Assembly: GCF_000208925.1 (NCBI RefSeq)
Contig: NW_001914902.1
Coordinates: 25,535-89,534, forward strand
Direction: 5' to 3'
From: Entamoeba histolytica HM-1:IMSS
Lineage: Eukaryota > Evosea > Mastigamoebida > Endamoebidae
DNA: 64,000 bases
The notes under the pieces are model-generated. The model did no database searches. It was not told the DNA's origin and saw nothing but the letters and a program-made list of their open reading frames with translations. Shown piece after piece: positions 4,051 through 50,863 of the stretch; position 1 is the first letter of the stretch; the number at the start of each line of letters is the position of its first letter. Both the position numbers and the translations under genes were made by a program.

Positions 4051-4284
4051 TTTACGTTTTGTTGAGTCTTTTTAAAACAATTCTTTTTATTATTTTTTTA
4101 TAATTCTTTTATTATATGTAATAGTATTTTATTATAATATACTATAATAAAACTATTCTATTTTTATTAAACGTTTTTTTCTTTTTTTTTTTTTAAATGC
4201 AAAAACTTTTCTAAAAATATTATCCATAAACTAAAAAAGGAAGGAAAAAAAGAAAAAATTTTAGTTTGGTAAACTCTAACTAAA

Positions 4285-7676: not shown

Positions 7677-10600
7677 ATGACATCTCCTCGGCTTAGTTTT
7701 AGATATAGTTTCACATCACCACTTTCTAGTACTCCTAATGATGTTCCATTAGTGTTATTTTTAACTAATAAAAATGATATGAATGAAGCAATGAAAAAAT
7801 TACCACCATCATCAATGTTATTTTGGGTACTTCATCCAACATTAAATGAACCGTCAAAGTTTGTTATTTAAATAACATTATAAAAGTATTATTTATTTAT
7901 AAAAATAGAGGAATTATTATGACAATTAAATATTATCATCTTATATTACACTATTCATTTTTAAATGATTTTGTTACAACAAAAATTTATAAAACAAAAA
8001 CCCAAAAAAAGGAAATGGAACCTGTTATTAATTGTGATATTAAAAACACAACAATTAATAATATTAAAACTTTATTCACTCAATTTGTTTTATATCAACA
8101 GTTCATTCAATTTCTTATGAAAACGAAATACTTTAATGATTCTTCTTCTTCCTCTCAACAAAAAATTATTTTCCCCGATTTAAAAACACCTCGATTACTT
8201 TGTAATAATATTCATGGATTAAAAATAATTGAATTGGATCAAGAAAATGGTGTTTTAACATTTATAAATGAAAATTTAGAAATTATTAATCGTTTTGATA
8301 CTCTTGAAGAATCAATTTGTGAATTAAAAAAGTATTTAACCACTACACAACATATTATTCAAATACAATATAATAATGATAAAGCTGATCAATTATTAGA
8401 AGAAATTAATCAACTGTGTTATTCTGAACAATTTGATCATAATACTATACTTGATTCAATATCTTCTTACATTAAAGTTGTATGTAAATTACATGATATA
8501 AGAGTAGAAGAATCATTAGAAGCATTAATTATTAGACTATTTTCTTGTTCACCAAATGATAAAGTTAAAGTATTCAAATTACTTTTTGATCATATCCGGT
8601 GTCATCCATTATGTTCATGGGTTTATATATTATTAGGTCATTTGATAAATAATTATAAAGATGATATTCAATCTCTATTAACAAAAGAAAAGATATCATC
8701 CTCTCTCTCTCAAAAGCTTCATCAAATTCATGAATCTCTCTTTGGGGGATATCTTTTTGATGAACAAGCTCTCCCTTCAATTAAAACTATTGTCTTAAAT
8801 AATTCTGATTTAAAAAATTCTTCTCAAGAACTTGATAAGTCGTCATACCCATTAATACAAAATAAACGAAAGTCTATCTTCTTCTCAAGTCCAATGTTTC
8901 AAGAAGATGATACTTTCTTAAGAAGACAAAGTAGAAGTTTTCAACGTGCTATCACTCCAAAACATTTTGGTAAACCTCTTAAAGGAGGGATTTCACAACA
9001 ATTAACAGAAGAATTATCAGGATCAAAAAACGAAATAAGAACAGAGGCTAAACGATTAGCTCAAGCATTTTTTAATGAAAGTCTTCCTTATATTCTTAAA
9101 GTAGATCAAACAGGTGTTACACTACAAAAACAAAAAAGAATAGTTAGAGATACTGAAGATGAAGAAATATATAAAGAAGAATTAAAAGAGTTAAAAGAAT
9201 TAATGAAAATTATTGGAATGAGTATTGTTATGGAAAGGAATAGAGATTTAATGAAACAAATTTGTCATCTTTTAGTGACTAGTATATCATTAAAATTTAA
9301 ACTAACATTTTCTACAGTTGTTATTAATCTTGAAGAATATTTTAAACATGTATTTATTTCAGGTCAAGAAAATATTATTGTTAGTATATTAATATCATGG
9401 GAAAATGTTATACAAGAATCTAAATCCCTCCGAGCATATTTTTTTTGTATTTTATTAAAAATATTTAGAGTTTATATGAAAATAGCTAGATATCAAACAA
9501 TTGGATTAGGATTATCAGAAAGAATTTTAATGCCTATTTCTTTATGTCTTCAACGTCCACAAACAGAATGTTATTTAGACTCTCAATATGACCTTTTAAT
9601 AGAAGTTGGTCGTTGTTTTAAAATTTTTAATAATAAATGTTTAAATGAAACACACTCAGTTCATGCAATTCAATTAATGTATGCACCTCATAATATTGGT
9701 TTATTAGCCATTACTTGTATTAAAAGATATCTTATTGATTGGGATAAAGAAACATCAAACTACCATGAAAATGTTAACAAATTACTTGGAAAGAAACGAG
9801 AATATGCCATTCTTTATTTTCAAGTTCTTGTTCGTTTGTTACAAGTCTTTGATCAAAAATCTCTTCCAAACAATCAAAATTATACATCAATTCAAGAAAA
9901 TTTAGAAAATCTAGTCGTCCCACCAAATGGATTTCTTTTTAGATTTTTAAGGGATGAAACTGTTTTATTTGGAGTTGACGCTAAAGTTACTGCACTCTCT
10001 TTTTTTACATATTTCTTTAGTGTGAATTCACCAATTATCAGAAGAAAATCTGTTGTTAATGAGTATATTAGATTTGCATTTAAATTATTCATTAAAATAT
10101 ATTATAAAGATACTTGGACTGATGATGATATTAGAGTATTAGTTGGAGCTTTGAAAATGTTAAATGGACTTGCAGCACATAAAACTGAGTTTAGTAGACA
10201 AACCTTTTTCAGACTAGGTTTATTCTCATTATTATTACACGAAGTTATGTTAGAATTTAATATGAGTTGGAATAACTCTCATGAAGAAGAAACTGGGATT
10301 TTTGATGCTTTTAAACAACAACCTAAAAAACAATTAGAACAACCAAAAGCACAAACAAAACGTATGACTGGAAGAAAAAATATGAAAGTTAATATTCCTA
10401 GACTTTGTGTAAACGCTAGTCCAACTAAACCACTTTCTCCTCGTAAATTTGAAACAAAACCAGAAATTGATATTAAAAAGGATGGAATTACTCAATTATC
10501 ACCTCGAATTATGTTGGAAACTTCTAAAAAACAAACACACACTTCTTTTTCTGAGTTTAAGTCACCAGAAACAAGTGAAATTCCTGGTAAAGGAAGTGTT

Positions 10601-13600
10601 GAAACCCCACGTTCTTCTCCACAAATGGAAAAACGAGTTGATGATACAATAAAAACACCAAAAACTCATTTAAAACATAAAGTTGGAAATATTTCAATGT
10701 CTGAACTTGGTTCAAACTCAAGTTCTCCGGACATTCATAAAGGAGGTGTAGTTATTGATTTCAATAAAGACAATGTAAGTGATACTCCTCTTTCTAGTAG
10801 TCCATTAAAAAAACATGTTTATGGAAGTAAAACCCCTATGAGACTTTCTTTCCTAAAAACTAATCCAATTCAAGTTAACCAAACCTCACCCTCTCCTATG
10901 GGGTCTAGTGCATCTAGTCTTAGAAATTCATTGGAAGTTGGAACTGAATTAAGTTTAGGAAGATTAGAGAATGAAGTTCATGAAGACTCAACTGAATCAA
11001 AAAAGCCAAGAAAAGATAACATGAGGTTTTGTGTAAATACATCAGACAGACGTCAAGAAAATGAAAGAAATGAATCAATAAAAGTTCCAACAACACATAT
11101 TGCTTCTGTTTCACCACTAATACCTTGTGTTATTGAAGACAATATTTTAAAGGAAGAGTCGAAGAAGAAAGAGTCTATTAACCCAACACCCAATAACACA
11201 AAGCCAGTTGAAACAAGAATTGAAGAACCTCAAGGAATTGTTTCAACTGACAAACCAAATGATACAAAAGTTAAAGAAGAAATAAAGAAAGAAGGTATGC
11301 CTCCTGCTCGAAAAAAGCGACCACCACCACTTAAAATGGTTCCAGCTATTAGAAAGTCTATTGATAACTCAGGAACTGGAACGTCATCTGCATCAGGAAG
11401 TACAACTAATAGTTCTACTGGATTATTGACACAAGTAGAACAGAAATTTAAGGAAACAGGGAAGTTACATCTTATTCTTGATACGATGATGTTTGAAAAA
11501 ACAAACACTGAAGTAGTAAAAGTTGATGAACATTCATATGAAAATATGAGAAAAACAAGAAGAATTTATGTTAATAGTGATGTACATAAAGAGATTTTAA
11601 TGTTATTGTTTAATTTAATAGTGATGGAGAATGGAGTATTAGACCCATTATATACTGACCAATTTCCAGATTTAAAAGGTATGAAAGATGCATTATTTAT
11701 TTTGTCATGTCATTTAGATCGTAGTTCAAATAGAGAAATAGCAAAACAGTTATTCTGTCAAGAATCGTTAAATCCAGGAATTCAAGAGTTATTAAGGTTA
11801 TTATCACAACAATTTTTTGATATGTCAAAATATTCAATTATTAAAGTCATTGGAGAAGGTGCGTATGGAGTATGTTCTGAGGCATTGGTAAAATATGGAT
11901 CAGATGTAACACTGAATAAAGTTGTCATCAAACAAATTAAAATTTCTGAATCTCCTAAAGCAAGAAGTGTTCTTCATGACATTTTTAATGAAATTCTTAT
12001 TCTTGAAAGACATTGCAGAGATGAAAGAGTTTCTCATTTATTTGAATATGGATATAATGAAGGGTTTTATAATATTGTTATGTATCAATATTCTGCATCA
12101 TTAGGATCATGGAGAAGAAATTTACAACCATCAACATCAAACACACGAATTCATTTATTGTTAAATATTTACAAAGAAGTATTACGAGTTTGTCAAGTTT
12201 TAAACCAACGAATTATTCATTTTGATATTAAATGTGAAAATTTCTTAATTGAGCCATTACCTGGAGTATCATTAGAAACAGTCAATAATCCACAAACAGA
12301 AATTCCACCATTTAAGTTATGTCTTGCTGATTTTGGGGAGGCATGTGTTTATCGTAATGATAAAGAAGCAAATACAACTAGACATCGTGGAACAGAATCA
12401 ATTAAACCACCAGAAATGTTAAAAATGGATTTAGCAGGAGGAATGCCTGTAAATGCATCATGTGATATTTGGGCATTAGGCTGTTTGTTATATGAATTAT
12501 ATACATCAAAAATGCTTTTTGCAATTGCTGATGTTGGAGAATTTTATTTCAGAGTATTAAAGAGTGAAGAATTATTAACTGAAGAAAATAAAGAATTACT
12601 TGGAAATAACGAATATTTAATTGGATTTCTTGAATTTGTATTAAACAGAGATCCAACGAAACGACCACAAATATCTACATTAGCACAAAGATTTGATGAA
12701 GTAATTGAAAAGTTTAAAAAAGATAATAAAAAGGATTTACTTAAAGCAAAGAAGTGGGAAAAGAATAGAAAGATGTTGGAAAGAAAACAATATGAAGAAA
12801 TTGAAGAAGAAAATATTCAATCAAAGAAAGATATTGATATTAAAAGAGGAATAGAAGTTGTTGATTTTGAAGAATCTAAACAAGTATTTAAATATTTTAA
12901 TAATGTTCTATTTGGTGGAGAAATGAATGATGAAGAAGTATATAAAAGAGGAATTAAATATGTTATGCATTTTGGAGAAGAATTACCAACATCACTTTCA
13001 CTTACTGCTATGAATTATCCTATTCCAAAAACAATTGAAGAAATGATTAAATTATTTTCACGAATTATTGAGGTATTAAGGGAATTTGTTGTATCAAAAA
13101 GAGCTGTATATATTTGTGGAGATAAAGGATATATGCCAGCTGCTTTGTTAGTTGGATTTACAATGCAAAAACATTACTTATCAGAGTATGAGTCTTATCT
13201 TTACATTCAAAAAGTATGTCCATATGTTAGACTTCATGAATCTGTTTTAAGTGGATTAAAGTATTTTGAAAAGAATCCAATTCCATCAATTTTCAGTGGT
13301 AATGATAAATTAAGACATTTCCATTGTTTATGTGGAATTGTTGATATAGTTTTAACCCAACCCATTGATGAAGAATTAGTTAGAAATTGTAGATGTGAAG
13401 CAGATGGTAAAGAATGTTGTCCTAATCGTCATAATGGGTGTAGAATCTTTTTAGAAACAATGAAAGAAAAATCATCGTATGATGCAATATTTATGAAATG
13501 GGTTGGAGTAAAACAAAAGAATGTTGTGGGAATGAAGAATCTTTTGAACGTTATGAATGTGTTTGTTTATTCTTTTTTTTTGTATTTTATTTGCTTAATT

Positions 13601-13782
13601 AAAATATTCACCTAATTAGACTACCATCTTCTGGTAAAAGTGCAAAGATATATTCTTGTAAGAGTTGCGGATTTATTATGTTTGCCATTCCTAAAAAAGG
13701 ATTGGAAAAGAAGTTTTCAACAAACGGCAAAGGATATGATTTATTTATAGTGGTTAATAATGCTGGAATAGAACTGTTCTAA
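7677..13782 (+). CDS. Very large protein kinase with C-terminal inactive dual-specificity-phosphatase domain (two introns)
   Basis: Three exons, 7677-7858, 7909-13560 and 13620-13782, with GTTTGT...TAG introns of 50 and 59 nt, encode 1998 residues. The N-terminal ~900 residues are helical and unrecognised. Residues ~870-1270 are Ser/Pro/Thr-rich and probably disordered. A kinase domain spans ~1368-1664 with intact residues: GEGAYG glycine loop, VVIKQIK lysine, HFDIKCEN catalytic loop, ADFGE and GTESIKPPE. Residues ~1710-1860 follow the fold pattern of a dual-specificity phosphatase (VLFGGEMNDEEVYKRGIKYV, then VYICGDKGYMPAALLVGF). The signature Cys is present, but the Arg of CX5R is Met, so the domain should be catalytically dead. 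A Cys-rich tail follows (CRCEADGKECC, then YSCKSCGF), possibly zinc-binding. Splicing of the last intron supplies this YSCKSCGF end. Confidence 0.82.
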
Positions 13783-28915: not shown

Positions 28916-29924
28916 CAGAGAATAATTTTAAAAGTATTGAAGAAACAACTACAAACACATCCAAATAATAATTAATAAATAATTTTTTAATCAATTTCTT
29001 TAAATGATTTCAATGACATGATTTTCAGTAGAATTTAACCAAGTAATATAATAATTACATTTTTGTGTATTATTGGAAAAATGGATTATGGTTTTGAGTA
29101 ATTGTTTACTTGTTATTATGTTTATTTTATGAGATAGATATTGGTAATGAGAAAATTTTATTCATTTTACTCTTATGAGAATGATATTATTAGTTATAAA
29201 AGTGATTATTAATCATAGCTGTACAGAGTAAAACAAGTTCAAAGAAAAGAATAATTTAAGTAAGTAATTAATTCTTAATTAATATAAGACATATAAAAAT
29301 TGTTTGATTAGTGCATGCCAAGAAAAATATAATGGAATGATTTATTAACAAGAAATACAAAGCAATGAATGATAGTTAGTACTTTAGATAAAAATACTTT
29401 ATAATAGCAAAAGAATATTAATAATAAAAAGAAAGGATTAAAAAATAATTAAAATTAACAGAAAAATAAGAAGTAAAATATCCTTGATATAAAAAATAAT
29501 AAAAATAATAATTAATATTTTGTTCAAAACAATTAAAATATAAATATTTTCTATCTTAGAAATATCTTATTGTTATTTAATTTATTTGAAATTAATAATA
29601 TTATTTTTGAAAAGATAATAAAGTTTTATTCTTTTAATAATAAGTAAATGAAAAAGAAGTATTGAGAAAATTACATCTTTGTTTTATAAGTTTATAAATA
29701 AGAATAAAAAAAAAGAATAAAAAAAATTAAATCAATTTTTTTTTACTTAAAAAGGTTTTGAATGAAATATTCCTTTTGATTAATCATTAAATATAAGAAA
29801 AGTAAAGGTTTATGAAGAAAGAATTAATAAAAAAAAAAACGAATTTAAAGAAAGAAATTAATATAAAAACATTATAAAACTAATAAAAGAAAAAAGAAAA
29901 CTGAAAAAAGAATTGATTAATTTA
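28916..29924. other. 1-kb AT-rich intergenic region
   Basis: No coding frame, tRNA or repeat of note. A-rich towards the BspA-like gene (runs of aaaaagaaaa from 29,690). Confidence 0.5.
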
Positions 29925-32900
29925 ATGTTCATTATTTTATATTTCTTCATATATAATTGTTTTGGTAAATGTGAATTAAATTTTACTAGTGCAAGTAGAT
30001 ATGGATTAAATGGACTTATAGTTATAAGTTCAAATACACGTGAATGTAGTGGAGATATCAAAATACCAAATAGTGGAATAGATCCAATTTCCAATGAAGA
30101 AAAAAGGGTAGAAGTAATTGGATGGAATGCATTTAGTAATTCATTAATAAAGAGTATTGAAATACCAACAAGTATAAAAATAATTTGTCTTAATGCATTT
30201 TCAAATTGTAATAACTTACAAAATATAAATATTCCAAAAAGTGTTTATAGAATTGATTATCAAGCATTTTCTAATTGTAAATCTTTAGTTTCAATAAATT
30301 TTAATAATGCAGAAATTAAAGAATTAGGTAATGAATTATTTATTGGATGTAATAAATTAAAATCAATAGATTTATCAACATTTTCAATTGAAACAATTTA
30401 TGAAGATACTTTTAATGGATGTTCTAATTTAATAAATGTTATTCTTCCATATACTTTACGTGAAATTAAAGAAAGTGCATTTTCTGGATGTACTTCATTA
30501 ACAACGATTAATCTTCATAATACATTAATTAATTCTATTAAAGAAAAAGCTTTTAAAAAATGTACTTCTCTTATTACTATTACATTTCCTTCTACTCTTA
30601 CTTCTTTATCAAATAATTCATTTGAAAAATGTACTTCATTAACTTCAATTATTTTTCAGTCAGTATTATCATCTTCAAATAATAATATTCCTTTTAATGA
30701 ATGTAATAAACTTAAATCAATATATTATACTGGAACAGATTTATTTACTAATTGTATTTTCTCAAATAATCCAATACAAAATATTTATGTTAATTCAGAA
30801 TATCAACAAGACTTTATTTGTTCTATTAAAGTAATTAAAAATATTAATCATTCACCAATTATTTATCTTTGTAAATATTCTGATTCAAACGAATGTGTTT
30901 CTTATCTTTCATATAGAAAATCATCTATTAATCAATTAACAAATAATGAAATTTGTTATCAAAGAGGTTCAACAAATCAAAAAATTATAATAAATGATAA
31001 TAAATATTATCTTGTAGATTGTAATAATAATACTAAAATACAATATTATCAAAATAAAGAAATTAATAATAATATTATTTCTAATTTTATTTTTTCAGTA
31101 GGATATAAAGAAATAAATGATAATAATATTCATATTTTAAGAGAATATTTCATTTCTAAACGTATTGATAATATTCAATGGATTACTAATCAATGTACAG
31201 TTACAAAACATCTTTATTTAAATGAAAATGAAAATTCTTCAATTAAAACAAAAGATATTATTATTGAAATATATAGAAATGGATATATTTTAAATAATGG
31301 AATATTTTATATAGAAAAAAATATAAAAATGAATGAAATACAAACATTATATTTTGGAAATGAACAAATGTATAGAGAAGTATTAATTAATGATTATTTT
31401 GAATCAATGAATCAAGAAAATGAATATATTTTTGAATGTATTTCAAAAGATTTATGTAAAACATATAAATTTAATACTACTAATAATCTATTTATTGAAG
31501 ATATTGATTTTCCTCTTCTTAAAAAAGAAATAAAAACAAATATTTTAGCTATTGGTTATGAATATTTTCATTTTTATTATTCTCCTTATTTTAGTCAACA
31601 AGTTAAATTTACAAATTATTGTGAAAATGGAAAAATATTTAGAACTATTGGAATGGAACTTCAATTAATGTCTAATTTTGTTAATGAAAATGAATGTCCA
31701 AAAGATGATTATTCATCTTTTTCTATTGAAATTGAATCAAAAAATGAAACAATTGAAATTAATTCAAGAATATATAAAATTTCAGTTCTTGATAATAGAA
31801 TATCAGACTCAACACCAATATATTTAAAATTTACAAATTCATATTTAAGAGTTATTCCAAATAAATGTTTTCAAATAACAAATTCATCATCATTATTATT
31901 TATTCCTGGAATTTATGGAGATAAAAATTATATATTTTTAAAAGAATATAATTCAACAAATAATTGTAATGGAATATATGGTATTAGTGAATTTTCACCA
32001 GACCAATATAGTTATACTAAGTTTAATATCAATGATGATTATTCAATTATTAGTTATTTTGATAATGATTATAAAGATTGTGGAATTAATAAAATAGAAG
32101 AAGCAAGTTTAATTAGATATGTATTACCTGATATAAATAAATGTCAATTTAAGTCTACATATACCATCAATGAATTTAATTTAATTGAAACAAAATATGA
32201 TAATTCTGATTGTAAAGGTAATATAATTATTCAAGAAAGTTATGCATTAAAAAGATGTATAAATGATACGAATCAATTACATATTATAATTGCAACATTT
32301 CCTATTAAATCTGAAGATTGTAATAATAAATTTAAAGGATGTATAAATTGTGATTTAGATGAGTGTTATGAATGTCCAAGTGGTTATGGGTTATCAATGA
32401 AAAAGGATAAGTGTATAGACTGTTCTATATTTACAAATGATTGTATTCAATGTAATAATCAAACATGTACTAAATGTAATAGTATAGATAATGAAATTAG
32501 AGTTTATCATAATAATAATTGTTTAACATGTAAAGAAGCATTTAATGATAATGGTTGTTTAGAATGTAATGTAAATAATTGTACACTTTGTTCAAGTATT
32601 AATGGAACATTAAGATATTATAATAATGGTTCATGTAAAACATGTGAAGAAGCATATGATGAAAATTGTTCAGATTGTGATGGAATAGAATGTAAAAAAT
32701 GTAAAATAGAATATGGATTAAAAATAGGAAGACATGGATGTATGAAATGTTTTGATTTAGATAGTAAATGTTTAGAATGTGGAGAAGGAATATGTACTAA
32801 ATGTTATAATAATTTATTATTTAAAAACAATAAGTGTCAAAGTTGTGATGATATTTATGGAAAAGATTGTCTTTCATGTGATATAAATAATTGTTTAACT

Positions 32901-33122
32901 TGTGATAATAATAAAGTTGTTATTGAATCAAAGTGTATTAGTTGTAATAAACTATTTGATCATTGTGTTCATTGTAATACTACTCATTGTTTAGATTGTG
33001 ATTCAATTGCTTATTCTTTAAGTAATGGAAAATGTATTAATCAAAATAATGAACAAGGTAATAATTCTTGTTTAATTTCAATATTGTTAGTTTTTTCAAT
33101 AATTCTTTTCTTCTTAATTTAA
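29925..33122 (+). CDS. BspA-type LRR surface protein with cysteine-rich ectodomain and C-terminal membrane span
   Basis: 1065 residues from ATG 29925, chosen because it begins a signal peptide (MFIILYFFIYNCFGKCELNF); the open frame reaches 12 nt further up without an ATG. Residues ~55-280 are LRR_5/BspA-like repeats, each ending with a F-x-N/G-C-x-x-L turn (LNAFSNCNNLQNINIPKSVY). Residues ~290-780 are unrecognised, Asn- and Tyr-rich. Residues ~785-1035 are a furin/TMK-like cysteine-rich array of C-x-x-C units (ECYECPSGYGLSMKKDKCID). The C-terminus NSCLISILLVFSIILFFLI is a terminal hydrophobic span, suitable for a GPI signal or a membrane anchor without cytosolic tail. It is probably exposed at the trophozoite surface. 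Confidence 0.8.
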   Translation: MFIILYFFIYNCFGKCELNFTSASRYGLNGLIVISSNTRECSGDIKIPNSGIDPISNEEKRVEVIGWNAFSNSLIKSIEIPTSIKIICLNAFSNCNNLQNINIPKSVYRIDYQAFSNCKSLVSINFNNAEIKELGNELFIGCNKLKSIDLSTFSIETIYEDTFNGCSNLINVILPYTLREIKESAFSGCTSLTTINLHNTLINSIKEKAFKKCTSLITITFPSTLTSLSNNSFEKCTSLTSIIFQSVLSSSNNNIPFNECNKLKSIYYTGTDLFTNCIFSNNPIQNIYVNSEYQQDFICSIKVIKNINHSPIIYLCKYSDSNECVSYLSYRKSSINQLTNNEICYQRGSTNQKIIINDNKYYLVDCNNNTKIQYYQNKEINNNIISNFIFSVGYKEINDNNIHILREYFISKRIDNIQWITNQCTVTKHLYLNENENSSIKTKDIIIEIYRNGYILNNGIFYIEKNIKMNEIQTLYFGNEQMYREVLINDYFESMNQENEYIFECISKDLCKTYKFNTTNNLFIEDIDFPLLKKEIKTNILAIGYEYFHFYYSPYFSQQVKFTNYCENGKIFRTIGMELQLMSNFVNENECPKDDYSSFSIEIESKNETIEINSRIYKISVLDNRISDSTPIYLKFTNSYLRVIPNKCFQITNSSSLLFIPGIYGDKNYIFLKEYNSTNNCNGIYGISEFSPDQYSYTKFNINDDYSIISYFDNDYKDCGINKIEEASLIRYVLPDINKCQFKSTYTINEFNLIETKYDNSDCKGNIIIQESYALKRCINDTNQLHIIIATFPIKSEDCNNKFKGCINCDLDECYECPSGYGLSMKKDKCIDCSIFTNDCIQCNNQTCTKCNSIDNEIRVYHNNNCLTCKEAFNDNGCLECNVNNCTLCSSINGTLRYYNNGSCKTCEEAYDENCSDCDGIECKKCKIEYGLKIGRHGCMKCFDLDSKCLECGEGICTKCYNNLLFKNNKCQSCDDIYGKDCLSCDINNCLTCDNNKVVIESKCISCNKLFDHCVHCNTTHCLDCDSIAYSLSNGKCINQNNEQGNNSCLISILLVFSIILFFLI

Positions 33123-36262: not shown

Positions 36263-38881
36263 TTAAAAGTCAGAATAACTCTTTCCTTTCTTTTTGATAA
36301 TGACTACCACAATGATAGTAACAATAATAACAATGACTATAAATGCAATGAAAATAGCAGCAATAATACCAACAATAGCACCTGCACTTAAACCATCATC
36401 ATCTTCTTCTTCACTATTAGTACTATTATCATTTAGTCCTTCTTCTTCTTTCCAAGAGAAAGAAATTCTACCAAGACCAGTGTTGGTATTGCTATGAGCT
36501 CCAACAAAGACATAAACAGAATCACCTTTTTTCATTGGGTAAGAAACAATAGTTCCTTTTCGACCAACAGGAGAAGTAGTATAATCTCCAAAGGCAACAC
36601 ATTCTTTTGGCCATGACTCTTCTAAGTTAGTAGTACATTCTTTATACATATCAATATGGGAATAGAATGTTGATGAGTCATCAGTTAATGCCTGAAGAGT
36701 TTTATCTTCTGGAGCTGTGATATGATACCATACACCTTTTATTCCATCTTCAGTTGATCCACAAATTCTTCGTGATGAAGTAGAGAACATTGTATTGAAA
36801 TATTTGATTGCTGGAACATGAATTTCTTCAGCGTTCGAACACATTGAATTTTTTGGTCTAACATTTTGTTCATAAATACTTACTCTAGTAAATGCTTTTT
36901 GAGCATTGACATCTTTTGCATGGAAAAGAATTGAAGTATTAATAGCAGGAATAGTGTTATATAATTCTAATTGGATTGTACTTCCAAACCCACATGTTGA
37001 TTCAGTGTCTGGAGAGAAACATGTCCAATATGGATAATAATAGTCACCAGATGCAGTAACTCCAATATTTGTATTAGTTTCCTCACCACAAGATGTAGCA
37101 ACATAAGTAATGCCACCATATGTTTTAATTCCATACCAAATACCAATTGATTCTTTTTCTTCATCACAACTCCATTTAGAACGTGCTCCACCAAGTAAAG
37201 CAACTCCAGTATATGGAAGACTATCAATCATGATTCTTTTTTCAATTGAAGAACCTCTAGTTTCAATTCCATAAGAAGCATAAAACAAAAAAGCACCATA
37301 GTCAGGTAAGTCATTAACTTCCTTAAGAGTTTTATGTGCTGTAGCAAAAATGTATTTACTTTCTCCTTTATTAATTGTAAATGAATATAATCCTGTAAAT
37401 GAATTACATTGTGTTGGTTCTTCACAAAGATCTTTCACTTCTAAATAACTAGTATATTTGTTTACATTAGTTGGAATAACACCTACTACAACATTTGTTT
37501 TTTGTTGAAGACTCTCAATCTTATACCAAGCACCTTGCCTTATAACTGGACCTAAACATCCTGTTGTAGTTGGAATTCTATTTGATGCAATAACATTTGA
37601 AGAAAAAATATCTCCTTTATTTCTAAGTAAAACTGAATGAGCATTAGAACATTGGAAATTACTAACATCATCTACTCTTAAAATATTCAAAACAACAGTT
37701 GCATTTTCATCAGTTGATGATGCTCTAATATAATAATGATGATTCTTTTCTAGTTTCATAACAATATATGAATTTATTCCACATTTTCTATATCCCCCTG
37801 AATAACAAACATTACAATCATCAACATAAACTTCTATATCAGTAGGTTTATTTATTGAAGCACAGGTATGAATTGCATACATATTATCATCACCTTGAAC
37901 TGATGTATAAAATCCATAATTATTTTTACCACATCCTGTTTTGTCTTTATTTAATCCTGCAACTTCAACTTCAAGAATAGCTGGGAATGAAGTAATTGCA
38001 TATGAACTAGAACATGTTGATGAATCAGCCTCATATGAGAAATATGTTTGAATAGTTCCAGGTTCTGGATGATAAATATCATGTTGTTTAAAACCAACAA
38101 AAACAAAATATTTGTTTCCAACTACAACATTATATGCAAGTCTTGATTTTAATCCACAATTCTTACTAACTTGAATTAATGGTTCATCCCCTTGACAATT
38201 ACCTGTAATATTGGCTCCTTCAACAGAAAGTATAGAAATAGAAGTACTAACAGTAGTAAATTTGTTGCATGTATTAATATAAACTTTATCTTTCTTTGCT
38301 GTAAATTGATACCAAAAGCCATGACCAAATTTATAAGAATCTGGTTTAGTATGATTTGTATCAATGTCTTGAGTAATAGTAATTGGAAGTGCTAATTTAA
38401 TAGCAGTTTGACAATATGAATTATTTAGTTTTGTTTCCTTATTAACAGTTAGTCTAAATGCACCAGTTTCATTCTTTGTAACACCAGTAACCATTACAAA
38501 GACTTCTTGGTTTTTAAGAACATTAAATCTAACTTTTGATCTATGTCCTTCACATACATTTTGAGAAATATCTTCTGCTCCAATACATTCTGTAGTAACA
38601 TCATTTTCACATTTTGTTCCAACAATAATTCTTGGTGCAATAACTGTCTCTGGATAACAAGTACTTGCAATATATGATGCATCAGAATCACTAGTAAATT
38701 TAAAGACATAAGCATTTTGATTAACATTACCAGATGAATAACAATTCCATGTAGATGGATTATTATCTGTTAATGTAAATGTTCCTGAATCATATACATC
38801 AAAATGTGGAGTAATAGAAATAGCTGTTGAACATTTATTTTGAGCAAAGGATATTGCAACAAGACTAAGAAGAATAAACAT
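36263..38881 (-). CDS. CPBF-like lysosomal/phagosomal sorting receptor
   Basis: 872 residues, single exon. A signal peptide (MFILLSLVAISFAQNKCS) is followed by a luminal region of repeated ~120-residue beta modules that begin with C-x-x-A (CSTAISITPHFDVYDSGTFT, CQTAIKLALPITI, CSSSYAITSFPAIL, CSNAHSVLLRN, CSNAEEIHVPAIKYF). These resemble prepeptidase-C-terminal (PPC) domains. The C-terminus has an acidic stalk, a strong membrane span (AIVGIIAAIFIAFIVIVIIV) and a 10-residue tail ending YSDF, a tyrosine sorting motif of the Y-x-x-hydrophobic type at the extreme end. Size and layout match the cysteine protease binding family (CPBF) of Entamoeba, whose members carry hydrolases to phagosomes and lysosomes. 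Which CPBF member it is cannot be decided here. Confidence 0.78.
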   Translation of the reverse strand: MFILLSLVAISFAQNKCSTAISITPHFDVYDSGTFTLTDNNPSTWNCYSSGNVNQNAYVFKFTSDSDASYIASTCYPETVIAPRIIVGTKCENDVTTECIGAEDISQNVCEGHRSKVRFNVLKNQEVFVMVTGVTKNETGAFRLTVNKETKLNNSYCQTAIKLALPITITQDIDTNHTKPDSYKFGHGFWYQFTAKKDKVYINTCNKFTTVSTSISILSVEGANITGNCQGDEPLIQVSKNCGLKSRLAYNVVVGNKYFVFVGFKQHDIYHPEPGTIQTYFSYEADSSTCSSSYAITSFPAILEVEVAGLNKDKTGCGKNNYGFYTSVQGDDNMYAIHTCASINKPTDIEVYVDDCNVCYSGGYRKCGINSYIVMKLEKNHHYYIRASSTDENATVVLNILRVDDVSNFQCSNAHSVLLRNKGDIFSSNVIASNRIPTTTGCLGPVIRQGAWYKIESLQQKTNVVVGVIPTNVNKYTSYLEVKDLCEEPTQCNSFTGLYSFTINKGESKYIFATAHKTLKEVNDLPDYGAFLFYASYGIETRGSSIEKRIMIDSLPYTGVALLGGARSKWSCDEEKESIGIWYGIKTYGGITYVATSCGEETNTNIGVTASGDYYYPYWTCFSPDTESTCGFGSTIQLELYNTIPAINTSILFHAKDVNAQKAFTRVSIYEQNVRPKNSMCSNAEEIHVPAIKYFNTMFSTSSRRICGSTEDGIKGVWYHITAPEDKTLQALTDDSSTFYSHIDMYKECTTNLEESWPKECVAFGDYTTSPVGRKGTIVSYPMKKGDSVYVFVGAHSNTNTGLGRISFSWKEEEGLNDNSTNSEEEDDDGLSAGAIVGIIAAIFIAFIVIVIIVTIIVVVIIKKKGKSYSDF

Positions 38882-40213: not shown

Positions 40214-43200
40214 TTATTCTGTTATAGACTCTAATTGAACAAGTACTTCTTTCATTGTTGGTCTTAGTGTTTGGTCTGCATTCCAACAATGTGTAATGAG
40301 AGAATTAAAAACTGTCATTTTTTCGTTTAAAGCTGGTCTGTATCCCATTAACACTTTTTCTCTAATTTCACTAAAGAATTTAAATTCCGAGAATGGTGTC
40401 TTGTTAGTGCTAAGTTCCCAAAGGACAATAGCATAAGAATAGACATCACTTTTTTGAGTGAAGGCATTTCCACTAATAACTTCTGGGGCAAGCCAATATG
40501 GACATTCTACTTTTGATGAAGTTGAAGCATAAGCTGGTACTGTTTCACCAAAGTCACTTATGGCACAGCTAACAAATGATTTATTGTTATCTAGTTTAAT
40601 AAGTACATTTGGTGATTTAATATCACAATGAATAAGAGGGATTTTATAAGTATGAAGAAAGTTAATTCCATCTGCTATTTGTTTTGCGATTTGAATTTTT
40701 TCATGTAATGAAAATTCATAATGGTTTTGATTAATAAGACTGTACAAACTACCTCCATTAAAATATTCTATTGTAACAAATAATGGGTAAAGAGAATATC
40801 CATAAATTTTAGCAATTGATTGATGAGAAGGGAAGTTAATAAAGTTAATTTCACGTAAAAATTCTTCTAATATAGAGGTAAATAATTGAATGGCTGTTGT
40901 TTCTTTATTAATTCCAGTAACACTAAAATCAATATTTCCCAATTTAAGTACCATAAGTTCTTTGTTAACTTTTCTTTCAAACAATGAAATAGTAGAGTTA
41001 GATCCAGTACCAATGTCATTAATAAAATTAAATTGATCTAATGAATCAATACAATGTTTTGGAAAACTGTCTATTATATAATCTAATAAACATGCAACAG
41101 AATTAATTTCATGTTCTTTCCATTTAAAATTATATATAAAAGAATTAATATTTTGTTTAATAATTTCATTTGGAATAATTGTTTTAATTCCTTTAGATAA
41201 ACATTCATTACATAAAGCGTCAATCCTTTCTATTTTACAATTAGTTTGTTGACAAATAATTTTAATTTCATTAAAAATAGTATTAATAGTATTTACCATT
41301 AAAAATGGTATTTCTACATCATTAACTAATCCTCTAATTCTTATTTCAATTGTTTTTGATAATCTTTTTCCTTCTATAAGAACATATAATTTTCCTAAAT
41401 TTCTACCTTTTTGTACAATAACAATAGCACCATTTTTCCAATATGAATGAACAGTATATTTTAACATAAGAATTGAAATAATTAAATTGATTGCTTTATA
41501 ATTAATTACTTTCATTTTTATAATTCTACCAATTTCTATTTCATTTCTTAAATGTTGTTCTGGCCAAATGTCTTTATTAAAACTATCTTTATAATCATGA
41601 AAAGTATATAATATGACATTACTTAATTCTATTTTTTCAGTAACAATAATAGGAATAGAACTCCAACTTCCATTAGAAGATAATGCAGATGAACTACTTG
41701 TTGTTTGACTATATTTTTTTAACTGAGAAGATTGTTCAGAACAATATTTAAAAACATTTTCAAATTGTTTCTGACAACGGAATGGTTTAACAATATCTTT
41801 TGTAATTTGTATTAAAAATCCATTTTTCTCAAGAAGTCTTAAGATAAATTTAATAGTATCATTTTTAATTCCAAGTAATTCAAATATATTAACACATAAA
41901 AATCCATTTTTATCACAATTCTTTTGTATAGTCTTAGAAGTTAAAGGAAATAGATCCCAATCAACTAAAACTTGTTGGTCATCCTTAAATTCAACTAATT
42001 GATTTTTATCTCTAAAATCATTATCAGTTAATAAATATCCATTCCTAGTAAGCCAATTTAATACTTTTTGCCATTCTTTCATTCCAAGACATTGAATAAT
42101 TTCTTTAATTTTACCTATTGTAAGACAAAACCCTGGTATTCTCAACCCACTTAATTCATTTAATAAATTAAAACAATTTTCATCTCCTTCAATAACCATT
42201 TTGTTTATTTGTTTAAATAATTTATTCCATAAACATGTAATTGTTTTCTTCTTTTTATTATCCATATAACAATAATATTCAATATCCATCATATTGTTAT
42301 CAACGTTTATATATTCTTTTACATTTATTTCTTCATTACAAATAATATGAATATACCCATGAATCTCCATCATTTTTAATAACTCTAAAACAACTTCTTC
42401 TTCAGAACTTTCTTTATTTTGTTTACAAACAATAAATAAACTTCTTCTTAATCTCCATATATCATTAAGTAATTGTTCTATTGACATTTCAATAATAACT
42501 AAACTTTTCTTTTCTTTCTTCTTTTTATCAATAAATTCAAATGTTAGAGAATGTTCTTCATTCATTTGAATACTTCCTTCTTCTATAAATTTCTTTTGTA
42601 ATATAGTAAATATTTCCTTTCTTAATAAACTACCAGTGATAATAATACACTCTAATTCCATTAATCTAATACCATCATTACACATTTGTTTCATTGTTTT
42701 AAGTGAAGGAATTGAAATTAAAGATAATTTTGTTTTTCTTGGAATAACGTTATTAGCAATAACCTTCAATTGTTTCATAGTTTTAAACAATGCATTTGTT
42801 CCATTAACATGATTTGATGAAATATTTAATACTCTTAAAGAAGACATACTAAAAAATGAATAATTCATTTTACTAATATAATTGTCTGACACATCTAATC
42901 CAGTTAATGCTAGTCTAGTAATTTCTTCAGGTATAATTGGTAATCTACATCCTGATAATTTCAATTCTTGTAATGAACGAGGTGGATTATTAATAATATC
43001 GAGTATATCAAATCTAACATGTGAAAAATTTAATGAAGTAATATTAGGTAATGAACCAAGAATTGTTGGATATGAAAGAAATTCACTTCCATTAAAATAT
43101 TCTAAATCATTTCCAAGTTCAAATTGAAAATTTCTTGGAAAATCATTTGATGAAAGATCTAATTTTCTTAATGGAATATTACTTAATTCAGGTAAATTAA

Positions 43201-45757
43201 CTAAACAATTATTCCCTAAACTTAATGAAGTTAAATTTGATAATTGAGAAATTCTAGGAGTAATATAAAATATATCATTGTCATTTAAATTTAATTCAAT
43301 CAATTGTGGTAATTGAAGTAATTCAACAGGGAAATCTTTAAGACGATTGCTACTAAGGTCTAATATTCTTAATGTAGAAAATGAAGAAATACAAATATCT
43401 ATTGGTGGGAATGAATAAATTCTAAGTCCAATATTTTTTGTTGATAAAATATCACTTGTAAAGACTTTAGTACATTTTTTACTATAATTTAACCATTTAT
43501 AAATTAATGCACAATAATCTCCTTCAATAAGTTCATTCTTTAATAATTCATTAGAACGTTGATATAATGGATTAACAAATTCTGATGAATAATATTGAAC
43601 TAATGAAATAAATGAACTCTTTGAATTAACTTGACTATGATTAAATTCATAGAATCTGTGAGAAAATATAGAATGAAATGTTAATTGAATTAAACGTTCA
43701 TCAAACTCAAAAGCATAATTATTTTGTCTATATAAAAAGTTTATACAAAGTAAGAATAATATAAAATAATTTGAATATTCATATCCATCATTTTCAAAGA
43801 AACAAAATGAAATGAAATCTTTTTGTATTAATTCCATAAACCCATTAATAGTACGATAATGTGGATCAACTACTAACTGAATTAATCCACTCAAAACACA
43901 TAACCCTTTTTCACAATTTTTATTTGAAATAAGAATTAAATGAATTTGTTTTGTAGTAATTTGTTTAACTAATCTAAAAGTATAATCTAATGTAGTTCTT
44001 ATTTCATCACTAATTCTATTTGAAGCTTCAAATAAATATGATATATTTTGATTATTTTTTGTATTAACAGTTGGAAGTAATTCTTGAATTTTATTAACCA
44101 TTTCACTAATTTCATGTTCTCCAATAATGTCATATTTAGAAATAGTACATTGATATCCCTCTTTCATTTTAATTGTAAAACTTGATAATACAGTATCTGC
44201 ATATACATTTTTTAATAATGGAAATCTTATTAATTGACTTCCATTACTATGTTGATAACAAATAACAGCCTTTAAATCTTTTTCATTAATATGATATACT
44301 TCTTGACAAATTGGAACATTAACACTCATCATATTAATTGATTCAATATGTCCTTCTATTCCCATTCTTTTTACTTCATTAATAATAACATTATTAATTG
44401 TTGATGTACAATATAAATATTCTGTTTCAGTTGGATATCTATAATGTTGAATAATATTTTGAATCATTTCTTCATATGGTTGAATAGGTCCAACAATTCT
44501 AAAAGATAAAACTCTTAAGTCTTTACAAATAATACGTAAACAATGAGAATGTTCATTTTGACTAACTTGAACTCCAAGAACATTACAAATAGAACTACAT
44601 CCTAAATATTTTAAAACATTTAATTCTCTTTGGTTTAATTGAGAATCTGGCATAAATATAATTCTATGTGATGTAAAATAAACTGATCCTGGAACTGCAT
44701 CATTAGTGTCAATTTCTTCTGTTAATCCAACACAAAATAATGGACAAAACGCAAATTCATATTTTTTAATTACAACTTCCTTCTCATAAGGAAATAGTTC
44801 ATTAATATCTCTATTATATCTTTGTTCAAAAAACATTAAATCAACTAAAGGAAGAAATTCTTTTTTAAAAGAATTATTTTGTAACATTGCATTAAAATAA
44901 CAAAGATATAATTCTTCTTTCTCTTGTCCATTTAATCCATTTTGTTCAACAAATGCTCTCATAAATAAAATCATTTCTTTAAATAATAAAAATGCACATG
45001 GAGAATCTTCATTCATTCTTAACATAATATTTTCTATTTCTCCCATTAAATAATTCCTTAACCTTTCAATACCTAATTTATTCTTCATTGATAATCCCAT
45101 TTCAAAAACTTTTAATACACTATCATTAATCATTGGTTTAGGAAGACATAAAAAGAAATATTTAAGTAACACAAAAGCAAAATGTGTATCTTTATCTCTA
45201 ACTAATACTGGTAATTCTCCTAATGAATATTTATGACTAGTTGAAATAAGACGAACAAAGTCTTCATTTGAAATATTTCCATTTGTATTTAATAATGTAA
45301 AATAATTATCTCCAACACTCTTACATTCTTCTTTTATTGTCAAAGAATCTTGTTCAGTAAATCCTAATTGAATTAACTCTTTAATAGTTTTGTTTCTACA
45401 TTTTAATAATGAATAGCTTTTAATAATTTCTACATCTTTTATATTAAATCTATCCCAATGTAATGGAAATTCTCCTAATTTTCTTTCTGTAAGATAATTT
45501 AATTTATTAGTAGATTGGTGATAAATGAAAACCATAAGTTGGTGAACAACAACAGGAATATCTTTGAATGTTTTTTCATTTTCTTGATAACTTTGAAGAC
45601 TTCTTTTAATTAAAGACTGTATATTTGTTTCAACTTTAGAACAAAGTATATCTGAACTTGAATTATGATGAAAAAAACCTGATCCAATTTTGTTAATTTT
45701 CCCAATTTTTTTCTTTGTTAATGAAATAGATGACATTGGATAAACCCCTGATTGCAT
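40214..45757 (-). CDS. Giant pseudo-myotubularin / LRR / Roc-COR / TKL kinase
   Basis: A single-exon ORF of 1847 residues. Approximate order: helical N-terminus; GRAM/PH domain ~335-450 (AVPGSVYFTSHRIIFMP); myotubularin-type region ~450-760 with VVDPHYRTINGFMELIQKDF and YAFEFDERLIQLTFHSIF; LRRs ~770-1040 (LDLSSNRLKDFPVELL); degenerate Roc-like segment with a broken P-loop (IIITGSLLRKEIF); COR-like region ~1190-1430 (GFCLTIGKIKEIIQCLG, then LLEKNGFLIQI); kinase ~1575-1847 with HCDIKSPNV, SDFGE and WLAPE intact. The myotubularin signature C-x5-R reads CEKGLCV: the Cys is kept, the Arg is Val, so the lipid phosphatase should be dead. The kinase is predicted active. ROCO-type architecture suggests a scaffolded signalling kinase at PI3P-type membranes. 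Confidence 0.83.
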   Translation of the reverse strand: MQSGVYPMSSISLTKKKIGKINKIGSGFFHHNSSSDILCSKVETNIQSLIKRSLQSYQENEKTFKDIPVVVHQLMVFIYHQSTNKLNYLTERKLGEFPLHWDRFNIKDVEIIKSYSLLKCRNKTIKELIQLGFTEQDSLTIKEECKSVGDNYFTLLNTNGNISNEDFVRLISTSHKYSLGELPVLVRDKDTHFAFVLLKYFFLCLPKPMINDSVLKVFEMGLSMKNKLGIERLRNYLMGEIENIMLRMNEDSPCAFLLFKEMILFMRAFVEQNGLNGQEKEELYLCYFNAMLQNNSFKKEFLPLVDLMFFEQRYNRDINELFPYEKEVVIKKYEFAFCPLFCVGLTEEIDTNDAVPGSVYFTSHRIIFMPDSQLNQRELNVLKYLGCSSICNVLGVQVSQNEHSHCLRIICKDLRVLSFRIVGPIQPYEEMIQNIIQHYRYPTETEYLYCTSTINNVIINEVKRMGIEGHIESINMMSVNVPICQEVYHINEKDLKAVICYQHSNGSQLIRFPLLKNVYADTVLSSFTIKMKEGYQCTISKYDIIGEHEISEMVNKIQELLPTVNTKNNQNISYLFEASNRISDEIRTTLDYTFRLVKQITTKQIHLILISNKNCEKGLCVLSGLIQLVVDPHYRTINGFMELIQKDFISFCFFENDGYEYSNYFILFLLCINFLYRQNNYAFEFDERLIQLTFHSIFSHRFYEFNHSQVNSKSSFISLVQYYSSEFVNPLYQRSNELLKNELIEGDYCALIYKWLNYSKKCTKVFTSDILSTKNIGLRIYSFPPIDICISSFSTLRILDLSSNRLKDFPVELLQLPQLIELNLNDNDIFYITPRISQLSNLTSLSLGNNCLVNLPELSNIPLRKLDLSSNDFPRNFQFELGNDLEYFNGSEFLSYPTILGSLPNITSLNFSHVRFDILDIINNPPRSLQELKLSGCRLPIIPEEITRLALTGLDVSDNYISKMNYSFFSMSSLRVLNISSNHVNGTNALFKTMKQLKVIANNVIPRKTKLSLISIPSLKTMKQMCNDGIRLMELECIIITGSLLRKEIFTILQKKFIEEGSIQMNEEHSLTFEFIDKKKKEKKSLVIIEMSIEQLLNDIWRLRRSLFIVCKQNKESSEEEVVLELLKMMEIHGYIHIICNEEINVKEYINVDNNMMDIEYYCYMDNKKKKTITCLWNKLFKQINKMVIEGDENCFNLLNELSGLRIPGFCLTIGKIKEIIQCLGMKEWQKVLNWLTRNGYLLTDNDFRDKNQLVEFKDDQQVLVDWDLFPLTSKTIQKNCDKNGFLCVNIFELLGIKNDTIKFILRLLEKNGFLIQITKDIVKPFRCQKQFENVFKYCSEQSSQLKKYSQTTSSSSALSSNGSWSSIPIIVTEKIELSNVILYTFHDYKDSFNKDIWPEQHLRNEIEIGRIIKMKVINYKAINLIISILMLKYTVHSYWKNGAIVIVQKGRNLGKLYVLIEGKRLSKTIEIRIRGLVNDVEIPFLMVNTINTIFNEIKIICQQTNCKIERIDALCNECLSKGIKTIIPNEIIKQNINSFIYNFKWKEHEINSVACLLDYIIDSFPKHCIDSLDQFNFINDIGTGSNSTISLFERKVNKELMVLKLGNIDFSVTGINKETTAIQLFTSILEEFLREINFINFPSHQSIAKIYGYSLYPLFVTIEYFNGGSLYSLINQNHYEFSLHEKIQIAKQIADGINFLHTYKIPLIHCDIKSPNVLIKLDNNKSFVSCAISDFGETVPAYASTSSKVECPYWLAPEVISGNAFTQKSDVYSYAIVLWELSTNKTPFSEFKFFSEIREKVLMGYRPALNEKMTVFNSLITHCWNADQTLRPTMKEVLVQLESITE

Positions 45758-49318: not shown

Positions 49319-50863
49319 ATGATGAAATTATATTTTGTGATGGGTATACTTTCCATTTGTTCAGCTTTTTCTTATCTTGATGATGAATATTTATATTATA
49401 AAGACAGAATAACTGAAATGGAATTTAGTGGAAAACAATACGATGGTATAAATTTTGTTACAACACTAACAAAAAACCCACATTGTTTTCAGTTATTGGA
49501 AAAAACAAAAATCCCTTATGAAGATGATGATACTATTGTTTTTAATGTCTCTCATATCCATCCTTTATCAGCATTAGTCACATTATCAAATTTGATCTTT
49601 GCCCAACATGAAAATCCTTATTTCTTAGTCCCCTTTCTTTATCCTTCTCAAATGATGGTTCTTCAAAACTATTTTAATATTTCCTTTATGGCTCTTCAAT
49701 CTGGAATTGTTCAAACATATGCCAAAGTTAATCAAACTTCAGTAATTATAATAGAAAGTAGTATGATAACTACAGTATCAGTTTATGAATGGAAAGATGG
49801 ATTATTTTTAGAGACTGAACGAAAAGTATTTAATAAAGGTAGAATAGAAAGACAAATTCAACTAGGAAAACTTATTACACGACAAGACTCATCTCCAACA
49901 GAAATTTTTAGGTGTGGTAAAAAATTAGATGAAATTCTTGCAAATAAAGAAGATTTTAGTGAGAAAAATCAAATTCCATTTTGTTTAGTTACATCTCACA
50001 AAAATATTATATCTACTCTTGAAGAGTTTTATACTGAAATTATTCAATATATTAAAAATATTCTTCCACTCAAAAAAGGACAGTTGTTATATTCAAGTTT
50101 TTTAATAGGATATTTCGAGGATTTAATTAGAAAAAGTCCAGACTTTAAAGAATGGAATGTAATTACTGTTGATATTCATAATGTATTACAAAACAAAAAA
50201 CTTGATAAGTACATTGTCACCACTAGAAGCCATGATCATTATACATTATTTAATCCTTATATAAAAAAGTCTATCCCTATTTTGACAGATAAACAACTTA
50301 ATCAAACTCTTTATATTAATATTACTCTACCTTCAAATACAATTCATTTATGTGAATTACGTGGAACACTTGACTTCTCTCTTCCAGAAGAAGTTATTGG
50401 AACTATTTATTTAGAAAGAGAACCAAATAAATACCAAGTTCAGATAACAGGAAGTTTTGAGATAACTGTAAGTAATTTTAAACCAGAAATAACTAAACAA
50501 TCTATTTTTTATGAAGAGTATCAATGTCATACTTTACAAGGAGAGGAGAATTGTACAACATCTTTAATTGAAGTTCCAATAAAATTAGTTCTAAGAAAGG
50601 ATATTGACTTAGCCATTCGAAATAAAAACTCTTTCATAATGGAATCAAAACAATTAATATCCAAATTACAAATAGCTACTTTGCAATTTAAATCATTAAA
50701 TTATCTTCAAGATGGAATTGAATGGATGAAAAGGAATGGTCTTAGTGAAGAATCACTTATTCTTTCAAAATTTATTTCTAAATCTTCAAGTAGTTATGAA
50801 CTTATTGAAATAGCTGATTTAGTCTATGATTATGTAATGGAAAATAGTCATGAAATGGAATAA
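49319..50863 (+). CDS. Secretory-pathway protein, possibly a highly divergent Hsp70/GRP170-like protein
   Basis: 514 residues with a signal peptide (MMKLYFVMGILSICSAFSYL). Two regions resemble the Hsp70 superfamily: PFLYPSQMMVLQNYFNISFM, then ALQSGIVQTYAKVNQTSVII, which follows the order of the pre-hinge 'VPAYF...EPTAAAL-YG' segment and the phosphate-2 strand; and LCELRGTLDFSLPEEVIGTI with IYLE...YQVQITGSFEITVSN, like the beta-sandwich region of substrate domains. The DLGGGT-type phosphate loop is replaced by IESSMITTV, so nucleotide binding is doubtful. There is no KDEL-like retrieval signal (ends SHEME). An ER GRP170/Lhs1-like relative is the best guess. Confidence 0.45.
   Translation: MMKLYFVMGILSICSAFSYLDDEYLYYKDRITEMEFSGKQYDGINFVTTLTKNPHCFQLLEKTKIPYEDDDTIVFNVSHIHPLSALVTLSNLIFAQHENPYFLVPFLYPSQMMVLQNYFNISFMALQSGIVQTYAKVNQTSVIIIESSMITTVSVYEWKDGLFLETERKVFNKGRIERQIQLGKLITRQDSSPTEIFRCGKKLDEILANKEDFSEKNQIPFCLVTSHKNIISTLEEFYTEIIQYIKNILPLKKGQLLYSSFLIGYFEDLIRKSPDFKEWNVITVDIHNVLQNKKLDKYIVTTRSHDHYTLFNPYIKKSIPILTDKQLNQTLYINITLPSNTIHLCELRGTLDFSLPEEVIGTIYLEREPNKYQVQITGSFEITVSNFKPEITKQSIFYEEYQCHTLQGEENCTTSLIEVPIKLVLRKDIDLAIRNKNSFIMESKQLISKLQIATLQFKSLNYLQDGIEWMKRNGLSEESLILSKFISKSSSSYELIEIADLVYDYVMENSHEME

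Follow-up and report, generated by a model that had tools for sequence, protein, structure and literature searches.

The 64,000-nucleotide stretch of the Entamoeba histolytica HM-1:IMSS genome analysed here (contig NW_001914902.1, positions 25,535 to 89,534; hereafter the window) encodes on its reverse strand an 1847-residue protein in which a PH-GRAM domain, a myotubularin domain (MTM), leucine-rich repeats (LRR), a Roc-like segment, a COR region and a TKL-type protein kinase follow one another in a single open frame (Table 1). Both the open reading frame (ORF) and its architecture are real, and the E. nuttalli orthologue ENUP19_0341G0052 (P0002) is colinear, gap-free and of equal length, with 1823 of the 1847 residues identical and 24 different. 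The arrangement is that of the IMLRK family, named in 2010 by Kerk & Moorhead, who counted nine members in E. histolytica (PMC2927912). In the sections of that paper drawn on here, the same order (GRAM, inactive MTM, LRR, degenerate ROC, COR, TKL kinase) is described for the same species, some members carry an N-terminal RhoGAP, and nothing essential distinguishes the window protein, which must be one of the nine.

This domain order is backed by Pfam, profile and fold comparisons. Searched whole against Pfam, the protein yields the kinase (E 7.3e-38), the myotubularin domain (PF06602, E 1.1e-19) and the LRRs, which sit between the latter and the kinase half, and leaves GRAM, Roc, COR and RhoGAP undetected even when E values up to 1 are admitted; cut pieces yield GRAM (E 0.01) and COR-B (E 0.0011), both below the curated cut-off. 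A profile built from the nine Entamoeba paralogues matched MTMR1, 2, 6 and 8 in the PDB (E 1.4e-20 to 8.9e-25), the MTMR1 and MTMR6 matches covering the GRAM and phosphatase parts as one stretch, and this profile together with the VIA rows identifies a PH-GRAM domain that is weak from the window protein alone. At the C-terminus, the TKL kinase is recovered by both Pfam and the VIA rows. Evidence for COR comes from a profile-profile comparison against 15 canonical Roco sequences, in which COR-A reached 90.7% against 0.0-0.2% for reversed and shuffled controls, and, weakly, from Pfam. A first-pass annotation, made from the sequence alone, had placed GRAM-like and myotubularin-like blocks before the LRRs and a COR-like region ahead of the kinase, and in these places profiles find the myotubularin strongly and lend support to COR.

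Genome searches with the window protein and PF06602 revealed nine loci combining MTM and kinase (the window gene, L001-L007 and L009). PF06602 is above cut-off in eight of them, L006 reaching 22.3 of the required 25 bits, and its 22 genomic matches comprise these 8 and a further 14 within 10 standalone myotubularin loci, which are possible partners. This complement agrees with that of Kerk & Moorhead, as the counts are the same: 9 IMLRKs and 10 other myotubularins, 8 active and 2 inactive (PMC2927912). In a kinase tree, for which 18 sequences were supplied and 15 used after a motif filter removed 3 fish LRRK1 rows, the window gene groups with L001 (94/90) and L002 (98/98).

The phosphatase appears to have lost its chemistry. 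A motif scan recovered the active-site block in 5 of the 10 standalone myotubularin loci (four HC[ST]DGWDR and one CIDGTGI), opposite which the window protein, aligned by MAFFT with active myotubularins, reads SNKNCEKG, with Ser for His, Asn for Cys and Gly for Arg. An HMMER alignment to MTMR2 sets the register one residue off that of MAFFT and likewise leaves no catalytic Cys or Arg, and neither residue is retained by any of the nine paralogues in the MAFFT alignment. The HCX5R signature of active myotubularins is thus absent. The first-pass annotation had read the loop as CX5V, with Cys kept and Val in place of Arg; we reject this reading, as the two alignments with active myotubularins put Cys and Arg elsewhere and, the aligned catalytic position being Asn, the Cys in question is a chance residue of the adjoining loop.

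A comparable loss is evident where a Roc GTPase would be expected. GSLLRKEI aligns opposite the GPPRQGKT and similar sequences of Roco relatives and is two residues shorter, while at the G4 place VCKQNKE stands against VGTHLDL. The nucleotide-binding P-loop motif of ROCO GTPases, GxxxxGK[ST], occurs nowhere in the window protein or in any of the 10 Entamoeba loci compared (the nine above and L008, described below), and is present in 3/3 Roco relatives tested. Conversely, the kinase possesses G1585, K1605, E1636, H1710, D1712, N1717, D1735 and D1771, including the Lys, Glu, HxD Asp, Asn and DFG of an active enzyme, and is probably active. At the level of sequence, then, the phosphatase lacks both its Cys and its Arg, the P-loop is missing along with the G-loop Walker Lys expected at the Roc position, and the kinase residues are present. 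The proposal of two dead switches, phosphatase and GTPase, and a probably live kinase therefore holds at its core, although such a double loss in one ROCO-type kinase is not new, having been known for the whole family since 2010 (PMC2927912); what is added here are corrections and the RhoGAP detail considered below.

Table 1. Features of the IMLRK-type gene, with positions counted in the window
Feature	Residues	Position	Strand	Basis
Whole gene, IMLRK-type protein, 1847 aa, single open frame		40214..45757	(-)	ORF and colinear E. nuttalli orthologue P0002
RhoGAP-like region, first helix (TFKDIPVVVHQLMVFIYH)	62-83	45509..45574	(-)	N-termini alignment; VIA rows, model residues 52-313
Insert at RhoGAP arginine-finger loop place, SAM-like at best	about 84-165	45263..45508	(-)	N-termini alignment
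RhoGAP-like region, remainder	166-313	44819..45262	(-)	
PH-GRAM domain	322-440	44438..44794	(-)	nine-paralogue profile vs PDB, sub-cut-off Pfam, VIA rows
Pseudo-myotubularin domain	456-746	43520..44392	(-)	
Phosphatase-loop remnant SNKNCEKG, opposite HC[ST]DGWDR	611-618	43904..43927	(-)	MAFFT with active myotubularins
Leucine-rich repeats	792-983	42809..43384	(-)	Pfam
Roc-like segment, G-domain-like strand/helix order in low-confidence model	1036-1195	42173..42652	(-)	predicted structure
Broken P-loop GSLLRKEI	1042-1049	42611..42634	(-)	alignment with Roco proteins
COR-A	1196-1321	41795..42172	(-)	profile-profile 90.7%, E 1.3e-6, match residues 1169-1321
COR-B, includes YW[KR]xG block	1396-1521	41195..41572	(-)	sub-cut-off Pfam E 0.0011, Roco alignment
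CNEC (C1516-x-x-C1519)	1516-1519	41201..41212	(-)	invariant in 9/9 paralogues; CPxC in 3/5 Roco relatives of same alignment
TKL-type protein kinase domain	1578-1842	40232..41026	(-)	
HCD replacing HRD	1710-1712	40622..40630	(-)	alignments

Despite these losses, the dead parts show no faster decay than the kinase. Residues 541-1400, which span most of the dead MTM, the LRRs, the dead Roc and COR-A (860 residues), hold only 2 of the 24 differences between E. histolytica and E. nuttalli, compared with 5 in the kinase (287 residues), which suggests that the dead parts are maintained by selection; the binomial value for this stretch is 7e-5, for a stretch picked post hoc with the data already seen.

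Several observations weigh against this picture, and they bear chiefly on the Roc segment, the kinase and the N-terminus. Both structure models have low overall confidence (pLDDT 52 and 58), their input alignments of 5 and 9 rows being shallow because homologue searches returned few Entamoeba paralogues. In the same profile-profile comparison in which COR reached about 90%, Roc scored 0.1%, equal to the controls, so that of the Roc-like segment with a broken P-loop put forward in the first-pass annotation, the P-loop stands in the Roco alignment and Roc itself goes unrecovered by profile. The nine-paralogue Roc-COR profile matched no Roco chain in the PDB; the five matches that it gave were weak and to unrelated proteins, RctB ranking first with E 0.0035. 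Pfam on the segment between LRR and COR produced just a sub-cut-off NTPase-like match (NPHP3_N, E 0.012). Conceivably, this segment is some other small alpha/beta domain or a linker, within an LRR-COR kinase whose GTPase has been replaced. We consider this unlikely in view of its position, of an IITG-S/D block that aligns with the beta1-P-loop of Roco proteins, of a G/S/D-x-x-R-K pattern common to the window protein, L001 and L004, and of the model of residues 995-1847, which exhibits the beta-alpha-beta-beta order typical of a G-domain (pLDDT about 60-78) and a turn at the expected P-loop place. The first Foldseek match of this model is LRRK2 (8u7h, E 5.4e-14), but its input alignment contained LRRK1 and other Roco sequences and it is not independent support for Roc, while its VIA rows are taken up by kinases (model residues 546-853) and have no bearing on Roc-COR. 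Position, broken P-loop and this non-independent model therefore point weakly to a Roc. As for the kinase, which the first-pass annotation called intact, the catalytic residues bear this out but the HRD motif reads HCD, a change that might affect regulation or activity and that is seen in the window gene alone among the 10 Entamoeba loci. Were the kinase dead or nearly so, the protein would be a scaffold stripped of every enzymatic activity, and kinase loss does happen in the family, as L009 reads HRN...SA without the catalytic Asp and Asn. However, the window kinase keeps Lys, Glu, Asp, Asn and DFG, and HCD need not mean loss of activity, since three fish LRRK1 rows also lack the Arg (FCDLKS), as does P0019 (HLDLKS), a Roco relative discussed below. 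Kerk & Moorhead likewise predict active kinases in nearly all IMLRKs (PMC2927912), and we regard a dead kinase here as quite improbable.

The N-terminus is where the earlier account of the dead parts proved incomplete. An alignment of N-termini and the VIA rows suggest that a RhoGAP-like region was overlooked, possibly a third regulatory region that also looks dead. No GIFRVSG-like stretch is visible in it, and at what we take to be the place of the RhoGAP arginine finger lies an insert, located by the N-termini alignment and of low pLDDT across most of its length. A SAM domain in this insert is not claimed; SAM_2 is found only in paralogue L006, below cut-off (E 0.0085). Counting against a RhoGAP, the domain is below the Pfam cut-off in every paralogue and unseen in the window protein, and the best 50 Foldseek rows for the N-terminal model list RhoGEF DH/PH and no RhoGAP. 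The helical N-terminus could accordingly be DH-like or another helical bundle, with no third dead regulator, a reading to which we give a rather low probability. A bolder proposal is that the GTP switch has moved outside the molecule: with its own Roc dead, a finger-less RhoGAP fold would read Rho-GTP, and a separate Rho GTPase and phosphoinositide at the GRAM-MTM part would together gate the kinase. This is decidedly speculative, as is the accompanying idea that the arginine finger was lost to an inserted helical module, which we find equally doubtful; if the proposal were true, three dead enzyme folds would be three sensors serving one live kinase.

The explanation we favour, with moderate confidence, is that of a ROCO-family, LRRK-like IMLRK kinase whose regulatory domains keep their folds and have lost their chemistry, leaving a membrane scaffold with a partner-controlled kinase. 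Its likely function would be that of a membrane-targeted scaffold kinase with binding partners as the switch. GRAM and pseudo-myotubularin would anchor the protein at phosphoinositide membranes and possibly form pairs with active myotubularins of the amoeba, a Rho-type GTPase would be bound but not acted upon by the RhoGAP-like part, and the LRR, pseudo-Roc and COR would provide dimerisation and a lock on the kinase. Presumably, the kinase would be released by membrane lipid and partner-protein binding rather than by GTP in its own Roc. Much of this was anticipated: Kerk & Moorhead proposed that PH-GRAM targets these proteins to membranes, that they pair with active myotubularins and that binding partners control the kinase, and described the Entamoeba IMLRKs as having inactive myotubularins, kinases probably active in nearly all, and critical ROC residues so poorly conserved that GTPase activity is presumably absent, with EHI_048230 a possible exception (PMC2927912). 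The degenerate ROC was said there to alter the usual paradigm of a ROC controlling the kinase, and the cited parts of PMC6563779 and PMC4104024 restate these conclusions.

Related systems place these losses in context. By the description in PMC2927912, Dictyostelium Pats1 and Roco9 share the inactive MTM, LRR, ROC-COR and kinase, Roco9 having a RhoGAP as well, whereas poor conservation of critical ROC residues is described in its cited sections for the Entamoeba set and not for these. P0019, a EukProt transcript of 2508 aa, combines MTM, LRR, Roc, COR-B and kinase (precomputed Pfam) and its MTM loop also lacks HCX5R (MAFFT), but it retains an intact Roc P-loop (GKTKVGKS), lists a DEP domain in Pfam and carries an MTM-loop insert. 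It is an IMLRK outside Entamoeba, and its pairing of a dead MTM loop with an intact P-loop suggests that the MTM died earlier than the Roc. LRRK1 and LRRK2 share the LRR-Roc-COR-kinase order and the YWKxG and CPxC blocks, and differ in having a live Roc GTPase, no GRAM-MTM and other N-terminal domains.

Several further observations concern the paralogues. By motifs alone, and following the descriptions cited from PMC2927912 and PMC6563779, L003 fits EHI_107230, the pseudokinase L009 fits EHI_135010 and L022 fits EHI_188050. L001 and L003 are identical to the public E. histolytica proteins P0010 and P0011 over all 1689 and 1669 aligned residues, respectively. P0010 is missing 11 residues precisely at the dead phosphatase loop (L001, about 1900-1932), which looks like an annotation artefact or strain difference because the DNA has no GT-AG borders there. 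In L002, an in-frame TAG (1013-1015) splits the N-terminal part from the remainder, through pseudogenisation, strain variation, an intron or assembly error. The tenth locus, L008 (G000:C160:6000-10600, 1588-4182 (+), 865-882 aa), has a kinase that looks intact and a block resembling COR-B (NELEIAR, FCPKC), with no MTM or LRR match, and stands outside the nine IMLRKs. Elsewhere in the window lie an 833-aa LRR protein fused to a PP2C phosphatase (1549-4050 (+)), a 1069-aa BspA-type LRR protein (29913-33122 (+)), a 1898-aa protein in which Pfam recognises nothing but a kinase domain, residues 1305-1590 (7919-13615 (+)), and two long ORFs without a Pfam match at E <=0.001 (36263-38881 (-), 872 aa; 49319-50863 (+), 514 aa).

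Compared with the cited sections of PMC2927912, the analysis refines three points: how the inactive phosphatase loop aligns, what is inserted where the arginine finger would lie, and the HCD motif of the kinase. It gives a sharper view of the way in which the regulatory domains were each disabled, and of a possible third one. If the proposed working is correct, the family would offer a natural case of a LRRK2-type kinase that runs with no GTP in the Roc domain of its own, and, as was already argued in 2010, could reveal the roles of COR and LRR separately from the GTPase.
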